From Methanococcoides alaskense (GTDB taxonomy: Archaea > Halobacteriota > Methanosarcinia > Methanosarcinales > Methanosarcinaceae): a stretch of 64,000 bases of DNA. Shown piece by piece: positions 10,672-60,214 of this stretch (the first letter of the stretch is position 1; every line of letters begins with the position of its first letter). The DNA lies in assembly GCF_027594145.1 (NCBI RefSeq), contig NZ_JAQFFK010000003.1:124001-188000 (forward strand), read 5' to 3'. A program made the position numbers and the translations under genes. Below the pieces are notes generated by a model. The model ran no database searches. It saw nothing but the letters and a program-made list of their open reading frames with translations, and was not told where the DNA came from.

Positions 10672-11613
10672 TTAAGCAAAACGCTTGACATTCAGGTCAA
10701 TTCCATCGACTAGGACCGTTGGGCCAGTAATTATGCCATCAAGGTGAAGGTCAACTTTCACATAGCCTCCAAAGGTGGAATTATCTCCCAATGCAATATG
10801 TATCGTTCCTCCCACTTTTTCATCTTCGAGAATGACTCCGATAATGCTTGCTGCAGGATTTATCCCTATGCCGAGTTCTGCAATATTACGCCCGTCAGGC
10901 CCTACATTTTCCACCATTGCTTCAAGTTTTTCCGCACCTTCTCCTTCAAAGCTAACTGCTGACCTGTTCCTGATCTCTATGATCAATGGCTTGTCCAGTA
11001 ACCCGATGCCACCCATGGAGCCATCAATGACAGCCCTGCCGTTCACATTCTTCGGGGCAATGTACATCTCCCCTGCTGGAAGATTGGATGTCGTACCTTT
11101 CTCATGGCACATTCCTGTATCGGCCATCCATTCACACCCTTCCACATCAAGGACAAGGTCTGTACCCATCTCAGTGGTGATGCGAACCTCCTTCGATCCT
11201 TTAAGCGTCTCCAAGAGTTCGTCCGCAAGCTTTCCGATATCCTCATAATCTGCATTCAAACCTCCTTCCTGCATCATGGCCAGATTGATCCCTGGCATCG
11301 TAGCTGTCCGGGTACCGTTATCAGAAGCTCTCTTACGTGCCTGGGTATGGGTCAGTGACTTTGAAGCCGGGGCAAGAAGTACATCTGCGTTTTTCATGGC
11401 CTCTTCCACAAGGGCAGGCGGTTCAGCACCGTGCTGTTCTCTGGGTTCCATTGTAAGCAATACGGCCTCACAACCTGCACCCACTGCGGAATCATAGAGT
11501 GCCTTTGAGATCATCTTATCAGTGCATGTATCGGTGACAATAAGCACTGTCTCACCTTTCTTCGCACCCATACAGGTGTTAATTACCATATCTGCGCTTT
11601 TTTTAAGTTCCAT
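10672..11613 (-). CDS. M29-like (thermophilic type) aminopeptidase family protein
   Basis: The 313-residue product resembles the M29 leucyl aminopeptidase family. Its N-terminal half is a Rossmann-like domain (KGETVLIVTDTCTDKMI). The C-terminal part carries candidate metal ligands in the family order: LPAGEMYIAP (Glu), GEGAEKLEAM, AELGIGINPAA (Glu), IHIALGDNSTFGG (His, Asp) and VDLHLDGII (His, Asp). Such enzymes are metal-dependent peptidases of the cytoplasm. Its ATG overlaps the HerA gene's TAA (TAATG at 11611-11615), so the genes are coupled. Confidence 0.78.
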   Translation of the reverse strand: MELKKSADMVINTCMGAKKGETVLIVTDTCTDKMISKALYDSAVGAGCEAVLLTMEPREQHGAEPPALVEEAMKNADVLLAPASKSLTHTQARKRASDNGTRTATMPGINLAMMQEGGLNADYEDIGKLADELLETLKGSKEVRITTEMGTDLVLDVEGCEWMADTGMCHEKGTTSNLPAGEMYIAPKNVNGRAVIDGSMGGIGLLDKPLIIEIRNRSAVSFEGEGAEKLEAMVENVGPDGRNIAELGIGINPAASIIGVILEDEKVGGTIHIALGDNSTFGGYVKVDLHLDGIITGPTVLVDGIDLNVKRFA

Positions 11614-12899
11614 TAAATATCCCTTCGGTTCAATGCATTTGGCTCATTGCCACCATGCCAGCTGTATCTTGGTCTCACTTTTACAAGATGCGTGCTCTCT
11701 GATGTATCATCAACAACAAAAGCAATACCTCGTTCGGCTCCCATTTTCTTTATGGAATCTCCTATGTTCTCTCTCATATATGTAGGACGCATGGCTTCCA
11801 GGGCCTCGATATCGTCCTTTGCTGTGAGTCTGTGGCACATCACAAGGTCTGACTGGGAGATTATATCCGGATGAAGTGCCGCAGGTCTCTGGGTTGCAAA
11901 GATTATCGACAATCCCGGTTGCCTTCCCTGGCGCACCCATTCATTGATAAGGACCTCGGATGCAAGTGTTTTCCCTTCAGAAGGCACGAAAAGATGCGCT
12001 TCATCTATGAACATCCAGACCATGGGCATCTCCTGCACGACCTCTCCGTCCCCCATGCTCATTCTTTCATAAGTGCGCCTCTCCTGCAAGCGTCTGGCAT
12101 AGATGTCCCTTGAAATGATCGCCACCACAGCAGAGCGCACGATTTTGTTCTCTATGGAACTCACGTCAAGTATGGCGGTGGAGCCGCTCTTTATAATCTC
12201 TGAAAAACCGTTTGCGTTCTTCTCAAAGATCCCCCAGGAAGCAGCTGTCCTGAAATAGTTCTCTGCCGCCATTTTTGTAATCTCATCCGACCGCTCGTCC
12301 TCATTTATTCTGCTGACAACATCTCCCAGGGAGAACTCATTCTCTGCTTCACGCATGTCCTCAATGGTCCTTACAAGTAGAACTCCAAGAGGGGATGTTT
12401 CCTCGATATTGAAAAGGTCGCACCAGTCATATCCCTGTAAGTGAGCAACAGGAACTGAAAAAGGTATGACGTCAATATGCCGTTTAGTATATTCATTTAC
12501 ATGTCCTGCAGGCACGAACACATTGACATCGAATCCCTTTGGCTCTAATCCCCAATCCTTGAGAAGTTCCTTTTGCGGTTCGTTGCCTTTGCCAAGGGTC
12601 CAGAATATTCCCATGGTGTCAATGACAAGAGTCGCTATGTTCTGCTTGATCTCCTATGGAAGCAATGCCATCTCTTCGATCAAGGTTCCCATGGTATAGG
12701 ATTTGCCGTATCCCCGTTTACCGCATATAAGGATGGCATGGGGCTTGAGGGCATCGATGGCAACATGGGAGCCTGAAGACCGGTCAAGGGCGAGATATCT
12801 CCCAATATTGAGAACTCCCTCCTCGTTATCGTCTCTCCTGCCGAGTATGTATTGCTTCTTCACAACACCGGCACTAATGTCATCCTTTGGTTTTATCAT
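11613..12899 (-). CDS. HerA-like/DUF87 ATPase with an in-frame UAG (putative pyrrolysine)
   Basis: Read through one TAG codon, this gene gives 428 residues. The 81 residues before the TAG end in the Walker A region (GKRGYGKS, residues 60-67, then MGTLIEEMALLP). The frame continues unshifted with EIKQNIATLVIDTMG, the normal next strand of HerA/FtsK-type ATPases. Later come Walker B MVWMFIDEAHLF, IIFATQRPAAL and CHRLTAKDDIEAL. Neither half could work alone: the P-loop is on one side and Walker B on the other. HerA proteins are hexameric DNA-translocating ATPases, often partnered with NurA nuclease, but no nurA is adjacent. In a UAG = pyrrolysine organism residue 82 would be pyrrolysine. A recent nonsense mutation (GAG to TAG) is the alternative. 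Confidence 0.8.
12654..12656 (-). other. In-frame UAG codon in the HerA-like gene
   Basis: The plus strand reads CTA, so the mRNA codon is UAG. It is preceded by a Pro codon and followed by a Glu codon in the same frame, and both sides are conserved ATPase sequence. It is codon 82 of the combined gene. Confidence 0.9.
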
Positions 12900-55363: not shown

Positions 55364-56143
55364 TTGGAACTGATGTTCTTCCTTTACGTAATAGTTCTGA
55401 TCGTTATCTTCTTGCTGGCACTGATCCTGCTGGCACCTATAGCTGTAGCATTTGATGTAAATGGTGGTCTTTCCGGGGTCCGAAGCAATGTCAGTTTGAA
55501 GTGGATGTTCCTGTCTTACAGTTTTTCAGGTCAGCCCGATGCAAAAGAGGTTCCTGTCACGAATGGCACAACTTCGGCAGAAGAAAGCACTACAAAGGTG
55601 GACACTACAAAAGAGGACACTACAAAGGTGGACACTACAAAAGAGGACACTACAAAGGTGGACACTACAAAAGAGGACACTACAAAAGAGGACACTACAA
55701 AAGAGGACACTACAAAAGAGGACACTACAAAAGAGGACACTACAAAAGAGGATACAGATCATCCTCTGAAAAATACGTATGAAATGGCAAGGAAAGGGTA
55801 TGCTATAAAGGGGCAGTTCTTCCATTTGATGAAGGGTCTTCTTTTTCAGTTACACATAAGGGATCTCGCATTCGACCTTACTTATGGATTGCCTGACCCT
55901 GCTGACACGGGAATGTTGTGCGGCTATCTACATACGCTGGCTTCCATAGTTCGGGGAAGGGCCCGAAGTTTCAGTTATTCTTTATATCCGGTTTTCATGG
56001 AAGAGGCGTTCGATGTGCACCTGTCAGGTTCAATCCGTTTCAGGATCGGTTCTTTTATTCCTCCGCTTTTGATGTTCATATTCAATGTAAAGGTGCTGAA
56101 GACCGGCTGGTGGTTTGCGAAAAACAGATATTCTTCCAGTTAA
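55364..56143 (+). CDS. DUF2953 domain protein with an (TTKED)n repeat
   Basis: The 259-residue protein starts with TTG (or ATG at 55373), has one N-terminal membrane helix (FFLYVIVLIVIFLLALILL) and a C-terminal DUF2953-like part (LAFDLTYGLPDPADTGMLCGYL). Between them lies a hydrophilic stretch of eleven TTK(V/E)D units encoded by a 15-bp minisatellite. In Bacillus the DUF2953 gene ytfI is next to ytfJ (GerW), the same pairing as here, but the function of either is unknown. The repeat length may vary between strains. Confidence 0.82.
   Translation: MELMFFLYVIVLIVIFLLALILLAPIAVAFDVNGGLSGVRSNVSLKWMFLSYSFSGQPDAKEVPVTNGTTSAEESTTKVDTTKEDTTKVDTTKEDTTKVDTTKEDTTKEDTTKEDTTKEDTTKEDTTKEDTDHPLKNTYEMARKGYAIKGQFFHLMKGLLFQLHIRDLAFDLTYGLPDPADTGMLCGYLHTLASIVRGRARSFSYSLYPVFMEEAFDVHLSGSIRFRIGSFIPPLLMFIFNVKVLKTGWWFAKNRYSSS
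55589..55753 (+). repeat. 15-bp coding minisatellite, 11 units
   Basis: Eleven tandem copies of ACTACAAA(R)(G)(A/T)GGAC encode TTKVD or TTKED. The first six alternate V and E, giving a 30-bp higher-order period; the last five are all E. The unit has no stop in any frame, so long open frames occur there on both strands, as artefacts. Confidence 0.95.
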
Positions 56144-58189: not shown

Positions 58190-58882
58190 ATGGATGTGAA
58201 TGAGATATCAGAGGGCATATTCGAGGTTCGAAAAGGCGGTAAGAAGATATTGGCCACAAAGAATGCCAACCCCGGCTCGAATGTCTATGGTGAGAATCTG
58301 CTGGAGGAAGAAGGTGAGGAATATCGTGCCTGGGATGCCCGCAGGAGCAAACTCGCGGCAATGGTCCTCAAGAAGATGAAGGTGCCGATAAAAAGTGATT
58401 CCCGGGTCCTGTATCTTGGAGCCGCATCAGGCACCACCGTAAGCCACGTTTCAGATATGCTTCCCAATGGTATCGTCTATGCGGTGGAGTTCTCCCCACG
58501 TACCATGCGGGAACTGATCCAGCTCTGTGATACGAGGTCCAATATCGTGCCAATACTTGCAGATGCCTCCCGTCCGAAGCTTTATGCTCATATAGTTGAA
58601 CAGGTCGATGTGATCTTTCAGGACGTTGCCCAGCCTAATCAGGCGCAGATCGCTGCGGTGAATGCGGGGCAGTTCCTTAAGGAAGATGGGCATCTGCTTC
58701 TTTCCATTAAGGCCAGAAGTATCGATACGGTGGCGAATCCTTCCAAGGTCTTCAAAGAGGAAGTGAACAAACTGGAAAAGGACTTCGATACCCAATTCAA
58801 GATTATTAAGAAACACGACCTTGCACCGTTCCATGAGGACCATTTGGGACTGGTTGCGAAAAAGAAGCTTAAAGAAAACTAA
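58190..58882 (+). CDS. flpA: Fibrillarin-like rRNA/tRNA 2'-O-methyltransferase
   Basis: The 230-residue SAM-dependent enzyme shows NPGSNVYGENL, the SAM site VLYLGAASGTTVSHVSD, VYAVEFSPRTMREL, ILADASRP and LLLSIKARSID. It has the normal archaeal fibrillarin length and lacks the eukaryotic RGG tail. Nop5 and fibrillarin are adjacent as in most Euryarchaea. Confidence 0.96.
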   Translation: MDVNEISEGIFEVRKGGKKILATKNANPGSNVYGENLLEEEGEEYRAWDARRSKLAAMVLKKMKVPIKSDSRVLYLGAASGTTVSHVSDMLPNGIVYAVEFSPRTMRELIQLCDTRSNIVPILADASRPKLYAHIVEQVDVIFQDVAQPNQAQIAAVNAGQFLKEDGHLLLSIKARSIDTVANPSKVFKEEVNKLEKDFDTQFKIIKKHDLAPFHEDHLGLVAKKKLKEN

Positions 58883-58909: not shown

Positions 58910-59152
58910 ATGTCAGATACTGAGGAAAGATTCTCCGGTGGGAAATATTTTGGGGTATGCCCCTCTTTTCACCATTCAAAAGCTTGCAACTGCAAACGTT
59001 GTCCTTCATATCCCGGAGATGGTTATATGTTCTGTGCACGCGGCAATGATCGCTCACTTCCGGAAAAAAAGGAATGTCTTTGCAGGGAATGCTATGTTTA
59101 CAAGCAATTTGGCTTCGAAGGGGATTTCTTTTGCCGGCGTGATGTAAAATGA
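58910..59152 (+). CDS. Cys-rich DUF2769-like protein
   Basis: The 80-residue protein has nine Cys in pairs: FGVCPSF, ACNCKRCPSYPG, YMFCARGND, CLCRECYVYK and FFCRRD. The pattern CxCxxCPxY...FCARG followed by CxCxxCxVY resembles the DUF2769 family. It probably binds zinc or iron. Its TGA overlaps the rhodanese ATG (ATGA at 59149-59152), so both are co-translated. Confidence 0.75.
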   Translation: MSDTEERFSGGKYFGVCPSFHHSKACNCKRCPSYPGDGYMFCARGNDRSLPEKKECLCRECYVYKQFGFEGDFFCRRDVK

Positions 59153-59577
59153 GCATTCTTTCAAATAATATCACTATGTTGGTGACCTTACTGGTGATCG
59201 CATGCATTGCTTTAGGATTTATTGGATATGATAAATTTGCATCAAATAAAAATGGGGCAGATGTGAGCTATACGGATGTATCCGTTCATGAGGCTAAAGA
59301 TATGCTCGATAAGGGAGATGTTTTCCTTCTGGATGTGCGCACGGAAAGTGAATTCAATTCAGGTTATCTCGAAGGTGCAGTAAATATCGAGGTCTCACAA
59401 TTGGGATCACGGCTGGATGAAGTTCCAGCGGACAAGGTCATCCTGGTATATTGTCGTACAGGGGTAAGAAGTGTCAGGGCAAGTAAAACACTTGTTAATG
59501 CCGGTTATACGGATGTCTATAATATGAAAGGCGGTATTAGGGTATGGATGTCAGCAGTTTATCCTTACGTGATTTGA
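59149..59577 (+). CDS. Membrane-anchored rhodanese-domain protein
   Basis: The 142-residue protein has an N-terminal membrane helix (MLVTLLVIACIALGFIGY) and a single rhodanese domain: LLDVRTESEFNSGYLEGAVNI and the active loop VYCRTGVRS with Cys 102. It would bind persulfide sulfur outside or at the membrane, moving sulfur or acting in redox sensing. It overlaps the Cys-rich gene and is convergent with the carbonic anhydrase gene, 7 bases away. Confidence 0.9.
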   Translation: MSILSNNITMLVTLLVIACIALGFIGYDKFASNKNGADVSYTDVSVHEAKDMLDKGDVFLLDVRTESEFNSGYLEGAVNIEVSQLGSRLDEVPADKVILVYCRTGVRSVRASKTLVNAGYTDVYNMKGGIRVWMSAVYPYVI

Positions 59578-59584
59578 TCCCTTT

Positions 59585-60214
59585 TTATTTTTCACTCTTT
59601 TTCCTATATCCTTTAGCAAGCTCGATGTTCACGGAAACTACCTCTCTGTTGGTATTTTCAAAGAAATATCCTTCGAATATTTCCGGCAGAGCGTCTGCAT
59701 CTTCCTGTTTGGTGATCATCATTCCTGCGGGGACATACCTGTTTTCCGGAATGTCTACGCCAAAGGCACCGGATTTGGGTTCAAGCACGGAGCCCTTGCC
59801 AACATTTGCATTGAATACCAGTGTCTGCATTGCGAGGAATGCATCATCACAGACTGCAGCGGGGCCGTGTATCTGTGATTGGTGAGCAAGTGAAACTCTT
59901 TCTCCTATATATACTGAATATGGTCTACCTTCCACATTCACCTAATTTGCTTTAATTGGATTTCCTTTAATGTCAATGGTCTTCATGCCATGCATGATAA
60001 CTCCATCCTGAACATTACTGTCGTTGCCAATATGGATGGGGCTACCTTCATCGCCCCTTATGGATACAAAAGGAGATACCATTACTCTTTTTCCAATGGT
60101 TACATCTCCGATCACAATTGCTTGTGGGTGAATATATGCGGTATCGTCAATTGATGGAGCTTTCATCTTGGGATTCCAGGATGTCAATGGAGTGTGTTCT
60201 ATATTTTCCGGCAT
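59585..60214 (-). CDS. cam: Cam-type gamma-carbonic anhydrase with an in-frame UAG (putative pyrrolysine)
   Basis: Read through the TAG, the gene gives 209 residues aligned without a gap to the Methanosarcina Cam enzyme, which hydrates CO2. Zinc ligands fall at residues 75, 111 and 116, exactly 6 less than Cam His81, His117 and His122. Glu56 equals Glu62, Asn67 Asn73, Gln69 Gln75 and Asn196 Asn202. The constant offset on both sides of residue 91 means the TAG replaces exactly one codon (Cam has Ile there, as I recall the sequence). Oddities: the Cam proton-shuttle Glu84 is Lys78, and no signal peptide is present, unlike the secreted Cam. Neither half would form the left-handed beta-helix active site on its own. 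Confidence 0.85.
59942..59944 (-). other. In-frame UAG codon in the Cam-type gene
   Basis: The plus strand reads CTA, so the mRNA codon is UAG, at codon 91. It is flanked by an Asn codon and a Val codon in the same frame. No frameshift is needed to continue. Confidence 0.92.

Follow-up and report, generated by a model that had tools for sequence, protein, structure and literature searches.

Does a TAG in the middle of a carbonic anhydrase gene end the protein, or is it read as an amino acid? This question is raised by a gene of Methanococcoides alaskense that lies in a stretch of 64,000 nucleotides of contig NZ_JAQFFK010000003.1 (positions 124,001 to 188,000 of the forward strand), referred to here as the window. 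The gene, its parts and its neighbours, in window coordinates, are:

59585..60214, minus strand: gamma-carbonic anhydrase gene of the Cam lineage (cam), 209 codons when read through one TAG, ending in TAA
59945..60214, minus strand: codons 1-90, all that would remain if the TAG terminates; matches Pfam Hexapep by itself (E 1.5e-8) and is under selection
59942..59944, minus strand: in-frame TAG, codon 91, the proposed pyrrolysine; CAG in six sister species
59585..59941, minus strand: codons 92-209 and the stop codon, with two of the three zinc-ligand histidines
59149..59577, plus strand: rhodanese-domain gene, convergent neighbour of cam in both species groups
58910..59152, plus strand: 80-residue DUF2769 gene, neighbour in both species groups
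58190..58882, plus strand: fibrillarin gene (Pfam fibrillarin), neighbour in both species groups

The window also holds, at 55588-55752, eleven copies of a 15-base tandem repeat within an open reading frame (55364-56143), where they encode a repeated five-residue stretch.

A Cam-type gene is interrupted by a single TAG

The cam gene begins with the ATG at 60214 and runs on the minus strand to the TAA at 59585. Its open reading frames and codons bore out the original prediction that a Cam-type gene is interrupted here by one TAG at codon 91. Upstream of the ATG there are two open codons, or, counted by eye, seven if TAG is taken as sense; the protein therefore has no N-terminal extension, whereas its relatives L015 and L016 carry signal-like ones. 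The codons after the TAG open with GTG (codon 92), a possible start, and taken alone they fall below the cut-off for Hexapep (E 0.018).

We reject a sequencing error at the TAG, as the same TAG occurs in five separate genomes; the purifying selection on both halves of the gene likewise makes such an error, and also decay, unlikely. The in-frame TAG in this conserved gamma-carbonic anhydrase gene is real. It also goes beyond chance, since it stands at the same codon in five of 11 Methanococcoides genomes with purifying selection on both sides. An annotation that takes TAG as a stop would split this cam gene or drop it.

The read-through protein aligns with Cam without a gap

If the TAG stands for one residue, the protein resembles Cam along its whole length. 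Residues 4-206 align with residues 10-212 of the Cam chain at a constant offset of 6 and without a gap (E 2.2e-78), and the identity to Cam of Methanosarcina thermophila is 58% over 204 columns. This gap-free alignment to solved Cam structures agrees with the earlier claim that the TAG swaps one codon without an indel and supports the claim that the enzyme is complete only with readthrough. The six residues that had been named (H75, H111, H116, E56, N67 and N196) were all found, at the same offset on both sides. A predicted structure in which the TAG was modelled as Lys had a mean pLDDT of 93.4 and superimposed on Cam entry 3ow5 with a TM score of 0.97 and an rmsd of 0.5.

The likeness to Cam includes the three His ligands and the length of the acidic loop. 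H75, H111 and H116 correspond to the metal-ligand histidines 81, 117 and 122 of Cam. The long acidic loop, which is absent from CamH, is present here without a gap against Cam. Many distant matches break into two pieces flanking about residues 80-100. The NCBIfam carbonic anhydrase equivalog NF040597 was matched over positions 43-247 of 248 with 339.9 bits, short of its cut-off of 380. Also retained are E56, N67, Q69 and N196, the equivalents of Cam Glu62, Asn73, Gln75 and Asn202, whose roles are treated in passages of PMC4519908.

Further differences from Cam are the TAG itself, which aligns with Ile97, and the replacement of the proton-shuttle Glu84 by Lys78. Of 30 Cam genes, 18 have Glu at the position of Glu84, seven have Gln and five have Lys; the five with Lys are the five TAG genes, while the seven with Gln are those of the six sister Methanococcoides species and one gene from another genus (G028). 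Because Glu84 is replaced by Lys, and by Gln in the sister species, the carbonic anhydrase activity that the sequence suggests for the TAG gene is uncertain.

A passage of PMC4519908 places Glu84 in an acidic loop that runs from Leu83 to Asn96. With these limits, the residue equivalent to Ile97 directly follows the loop. The original prediction had put the extra residue near the zinc-site loop; this stood in that the residue comes directly after the acidic loop, but it is not itself a zinc ligand. The model places residue 91 after a helical turn (88-90) and before a strand (92-94); its confidence is lower here (pLDDT 81 for residues 81-90 and 87 for residues 91-100).

Cam domains also occur in tandem in our searches. 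One genome (G075) encodes three of them in a single open frame of 725 residues (L028, 1324-3501, minus strand), which may be the Cam trimer in single-chain form, and another locus (L029) encodes two fused Cam domains that reach past the contig end.

The TAG is conserved in five species and the site is variable

Our genus sample comprised 11 Methanococcoides genomes, one per species, including that of the window (G000). Comparing the codon in these related strains, we found TAG at codon 91 in five (G000, G002, G005, G008 and G009) and CAG, for Gln, in the other six. Three of these five were recovered in a search of named genomes, as Methanococcoides sp. SMBSF15, M. seepicolus LLY and Methanococcoides sp. 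SMBSF09. In the set of 30 Cam genes, codon 91 is Leu in 10, Gln in seven, TAG in five, Ile in four, Thr in two, Asn in one and Phe in one. The site is therefore variable, with six different standard residues among the 25 genes that lack the TAG; two Nitrospira sequences have Glu at this position.

Are the TAG and CAG genes orthologs? The fibrillarin, DUF2769 and rhodanese genes adjoin cam in all 11 genus genomes, and a phylogenetic tree placed the TAG genes in one clade and the CAG genes in another, joined with support 99/97. The common neighbours and the tree together rule out that the TAG gene is a paralog. The branch leading to the TAG clade is longer than that leading to the CAG clade (0.37 vs 0.23). 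Given Gln in the nearest relatives and a distance of a single C-to-T step, the simplest history is one change from CAG to TAG in the ancestor of the five species. Because the five genomes are closely related (94-99% DNA identity in cam), the TAG counts as one origin kept over a modest time.

Across the family, a Cam match (E <= 1e-50) was obtained in 49 of 111 genomes, and in six of these a TAG lies inside the match, namely the five Methanococcoides genomes and G136. The matches in G010 and G142 each contain a TAA, which in both lies at the end of the match. The Cam gene of G136 (L081) has two TAGs, at sites other than codon 91. Both fall on residues that are invariant in an alignment of 32 rows, and Trp replaces the invariant Arg53; on these grounds the gene looks decayed and is probably decaying, in contrast to the genes of the TAG group.

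Both halves of the gene are under purifying selection

Pooled pN/pS for the five TAG genes was 0.125 in codons 1-90 and 0.208 in codons 92-209. The corresponding values before and after codon 91 in the CAG group (five of its six genes) were 0.069 and 0.087, and the neighbours gave 0.076 (fibrillarin), 0.108 (response regulator) and 0.126 (DUF2769). After the TAG the value is roughly double the one for the CAG group and lies above those of the neighbours, so some relaxation downstream of the TAG, perhaps slight, is possible; values for single pairs range widely, from 0 to 0.52. Of the 26 variable sites downstream of the TAG, 18 fall on third positions (P 0.0002), and 14 are synonymous where 7.1 would be expected (P 0.003). 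In 51% of neutral simulations at this divergence, one or more stops arose in the downstream part; there is none in the real genes. With this synonymous excess and its low pN/pS, the downstream half behaves as translated, useful sequence.

The genome encodes the pyrrolysine machinery and seldom ends genes with TAG

The host genome contains a tRNA-Pyl with the anticodon CUA, and next to it lie pylS, pylB, pylC and pylD, all above their NCBIfam cut-offs; the set of pylT, pylS, pylB, pylC and pylD is thus complete. A pylS gene above the cut-off is present in all 11 genus genomes. To see how TAG is used, we called genes of at least 80 residues with our own codon-usage caller in 484 kb of the genome (the window and 21 further stretches). 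Among 305 called genes, TAG is the stop in six, TAA in 136 and TGA in 163. One of the six is pylB (L040, 6576-7817, minus strand), where a 42-codon extension to the next stop has no coding signal. The pylB of M. burtonii likewise has a TAG at this point, counted as a stop in a passage of PMC2933860. Since pylB apparently ends at TAG, UAG would be mostly, perhaps not always, sense.

When TAG is taken as sense, 24 of 356 called open reading frames of this genome have an internal TAG. In most of these it falls within a few codons of the start, as if the start site had been called wrongly; in L041, L042, L049 and L054 the TAG is close to the end of the gene. A HerA-like ATPase gene in the window (11613-12899, minus strand) has a TAG at codon 82, which is CAG in G002, G003, G005 and G008. 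The HerA-like gene of G005 has a separate TAG at codon 350, a codon for Ser in the other nine genus genes read, and a TAG in the HerA-like match of G063 is at the end of the match. In the window genome, an ABC ATPase gene (L058, 11576-12310, minus strand) has a TAG at codon 84, which is CAG or CAA in four sister genomes and CAT in five more. A cobaltochelatase-like gene of G005 (L067, 13643-15271, plus strand) has one at codon 395, which is TCG in three sisters. These four sense-to-TAG changes, in three genes, are each confined to one genus genome, whereas the Cam TAG is found in five, and recent nonsense mutation may account for some of them. The occurrence of sense-to-TAG changes elsewhere in the clade nevertheless favours a neutral origin of the Cam TAG. 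Internal TAGs were also seen in two loci of G001, a member of the CAG group: one in L071, and one in L075 (9451-13404, minus strand), where it separates coding halves of 564 and 752 residues of a large subtilase-like protein.

Probable readthrough as pyrrolysine and its alternatives

The gene has an in-frame TAG in place of one residue, coding sequence on both sides of it, and tRNA-Pyl, PylS and PylBCD in the same genome. It is a real and well-conserved candidate for a pyrrolysine gene outside the methyltransferases. Codon 91 is very probably read as pyrrolysine, with tRNA-Pyl (CUA) decoding it to give one full-length gamma-carbonic anhydrase. The TAG would have a single origin in the ancestor of the five Methanococcoides species, for which a C-to-T change in a CAG codon for Gln is the simplest route. 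This change would have hit a variable position where many residues are tolerated, and efficient reading of UAG, together with its rare use as a stop, would explain why the TAG has persisted. We regard this account, a single full-length enzyme with pyrrolysine at codon 91 that goes back to one tolerated and then retained CAG-to-TAG change, as probable. We infer from the genes the presence of pyrrolysine in the protein, the efficient reading of UAG and the neutrality of the change alike.

Could the downstream half instead be lost, or made separately? The somewhat raised pN/pS after the TAG and the loss of Glu84 would fit a gene in decay, whose TAG is a nonsense mutation that has ended production of the part beyond it, and the Cam gene of G136, with its two TAGs, does look decayed. 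But all five species retain the full length, the frame and the tested active-site residues except Glu84, and both the synonymous excess after the TAG and the lack of a further stop, which half of the neutral simulations acquired, speak against decay, which we hold to be distinctly unlikely. Alternatively, translation could stop at the TAG and restart at GTG92, yielding pieces of 90 and 118 residues that assemble into the beta-helix. A GTG does directly follow the TAG in all five TAG genomes; yet codon 92 is Val in the six TAG-less sister species as well, no Shine-Dalgarno-like run is seen by eye at a usable distance before it, neither a gap nor a linker appears against Cam, and the genome has a tRNA-Pyl that reads UAG. 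A split enzyme is thus extremely unlikely.

A further question is whether pyrrolysine at this site is itself under selection, either for proton transfer without Glu84 or because it ties the enzyme to pyrrolysine supply or methylamine growth. Such selection, which we consider unlikely, would explain why five species share the Cam TAG as a fixed codon when each of the four other internal TAGs compared here is confined to one genus genome. As a conditional switch, the TAG would allow full enzyme only when pyrrolysine is supplied, linking carbonic anhydrase to growth on methylamines. The fixation that this would account for is explained equally well by the age of a neutral change, and the six sister species use CAG although they have pylS. 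Nor did Rfam place a PYLIS family around cam, where its three matches were all to snoRNAs and far below gathering scores, although a passage of PMC9499178 reports that this element is not required. We therefore see a switch as very unlikely. Pyrrolysine could also have a chemical role, for example in standing in for the lost shuttle: the TAG group has Lys and the sister group Gln in place of Glu84, and residue 97 of Cam comes directly after the loop that bears Glu84 (a passage of PMC4519908). The CAG group, however, lacks Glu84 too and has no TAG, and the other 25 Cam genes have six standard residues at the site, making this the least probable of the readings weighed here. The hint in the original prediction of a special role for the residue was thus not supported, as the site is variable, the sisters have Gln (CAG) and other genes also show sense-to-TAG changes. 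Most likely, Gln was replaced neutrally by pyrrolysine.

Comparison with known pyrrolysine systems

We found no published report of this gene by text search, in a scope that leaves out most subscription journals and supplementary lists. Kivenson et al. (Science, 2025) reportedly described archaea, M. burtonii included, that read TAG throughout as pyrrolysine (the 'Pyl code'), and may already list this cam gene. In those archaea TAG is said to be always pyrrolysine, whereas here pylB still appears to end at TAG. Heinemann et al. are said to have written in 2009, on Thg1 of Methanosarcina acetivorans, of the 'appearance of pyrrolysine by neutral evolution'.

A predictor published in 2013 gave pyrrolysine candidates that may have arisen by drift, according to a passage of PMC3639795; the word anhydrase is absent from the main text of this paper and from that of PMC1242214. 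The methyltransferases MtmB, MtbB and MttB likewise have an in-frame TAG and would use the same tRNA-Pyl. Their pyrrolysine is in the active site (a passage of PMC8211752), whereas the cam site is variable and outside the active-site residues. The other known pyrrolysine proteins are given there as transposases and Thg1 only. Thg1, the tRNA-His guanylyltransferase, is the closer parallel: like cam, it is a non-methyltransferase with one in-frame TAG in a family that is otherwise sense-coded (PMC8211752), and in M. acetivorans its pyrrolysine is described as not essential. As would be expected of a neutral case of the Thg1 kind, the cam TAG lies at a variable site, one base change from the CAG of its orthologs. 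The Thg1 TAG is reported in M. acetivorans only, whereas the cam TAG, a candidate pyrrolysine codon, is common to five species and lies in a carbonic anhydrase gene. This longer conservation sets the Cam TAG apart from the known neutral pyrrolysine cases. With a well-known structure, Gln orthologs at the same codon and a TAG kept by five species, cam offers a clean natural test of the spread of pyrrolysine beyond methyltransferases.
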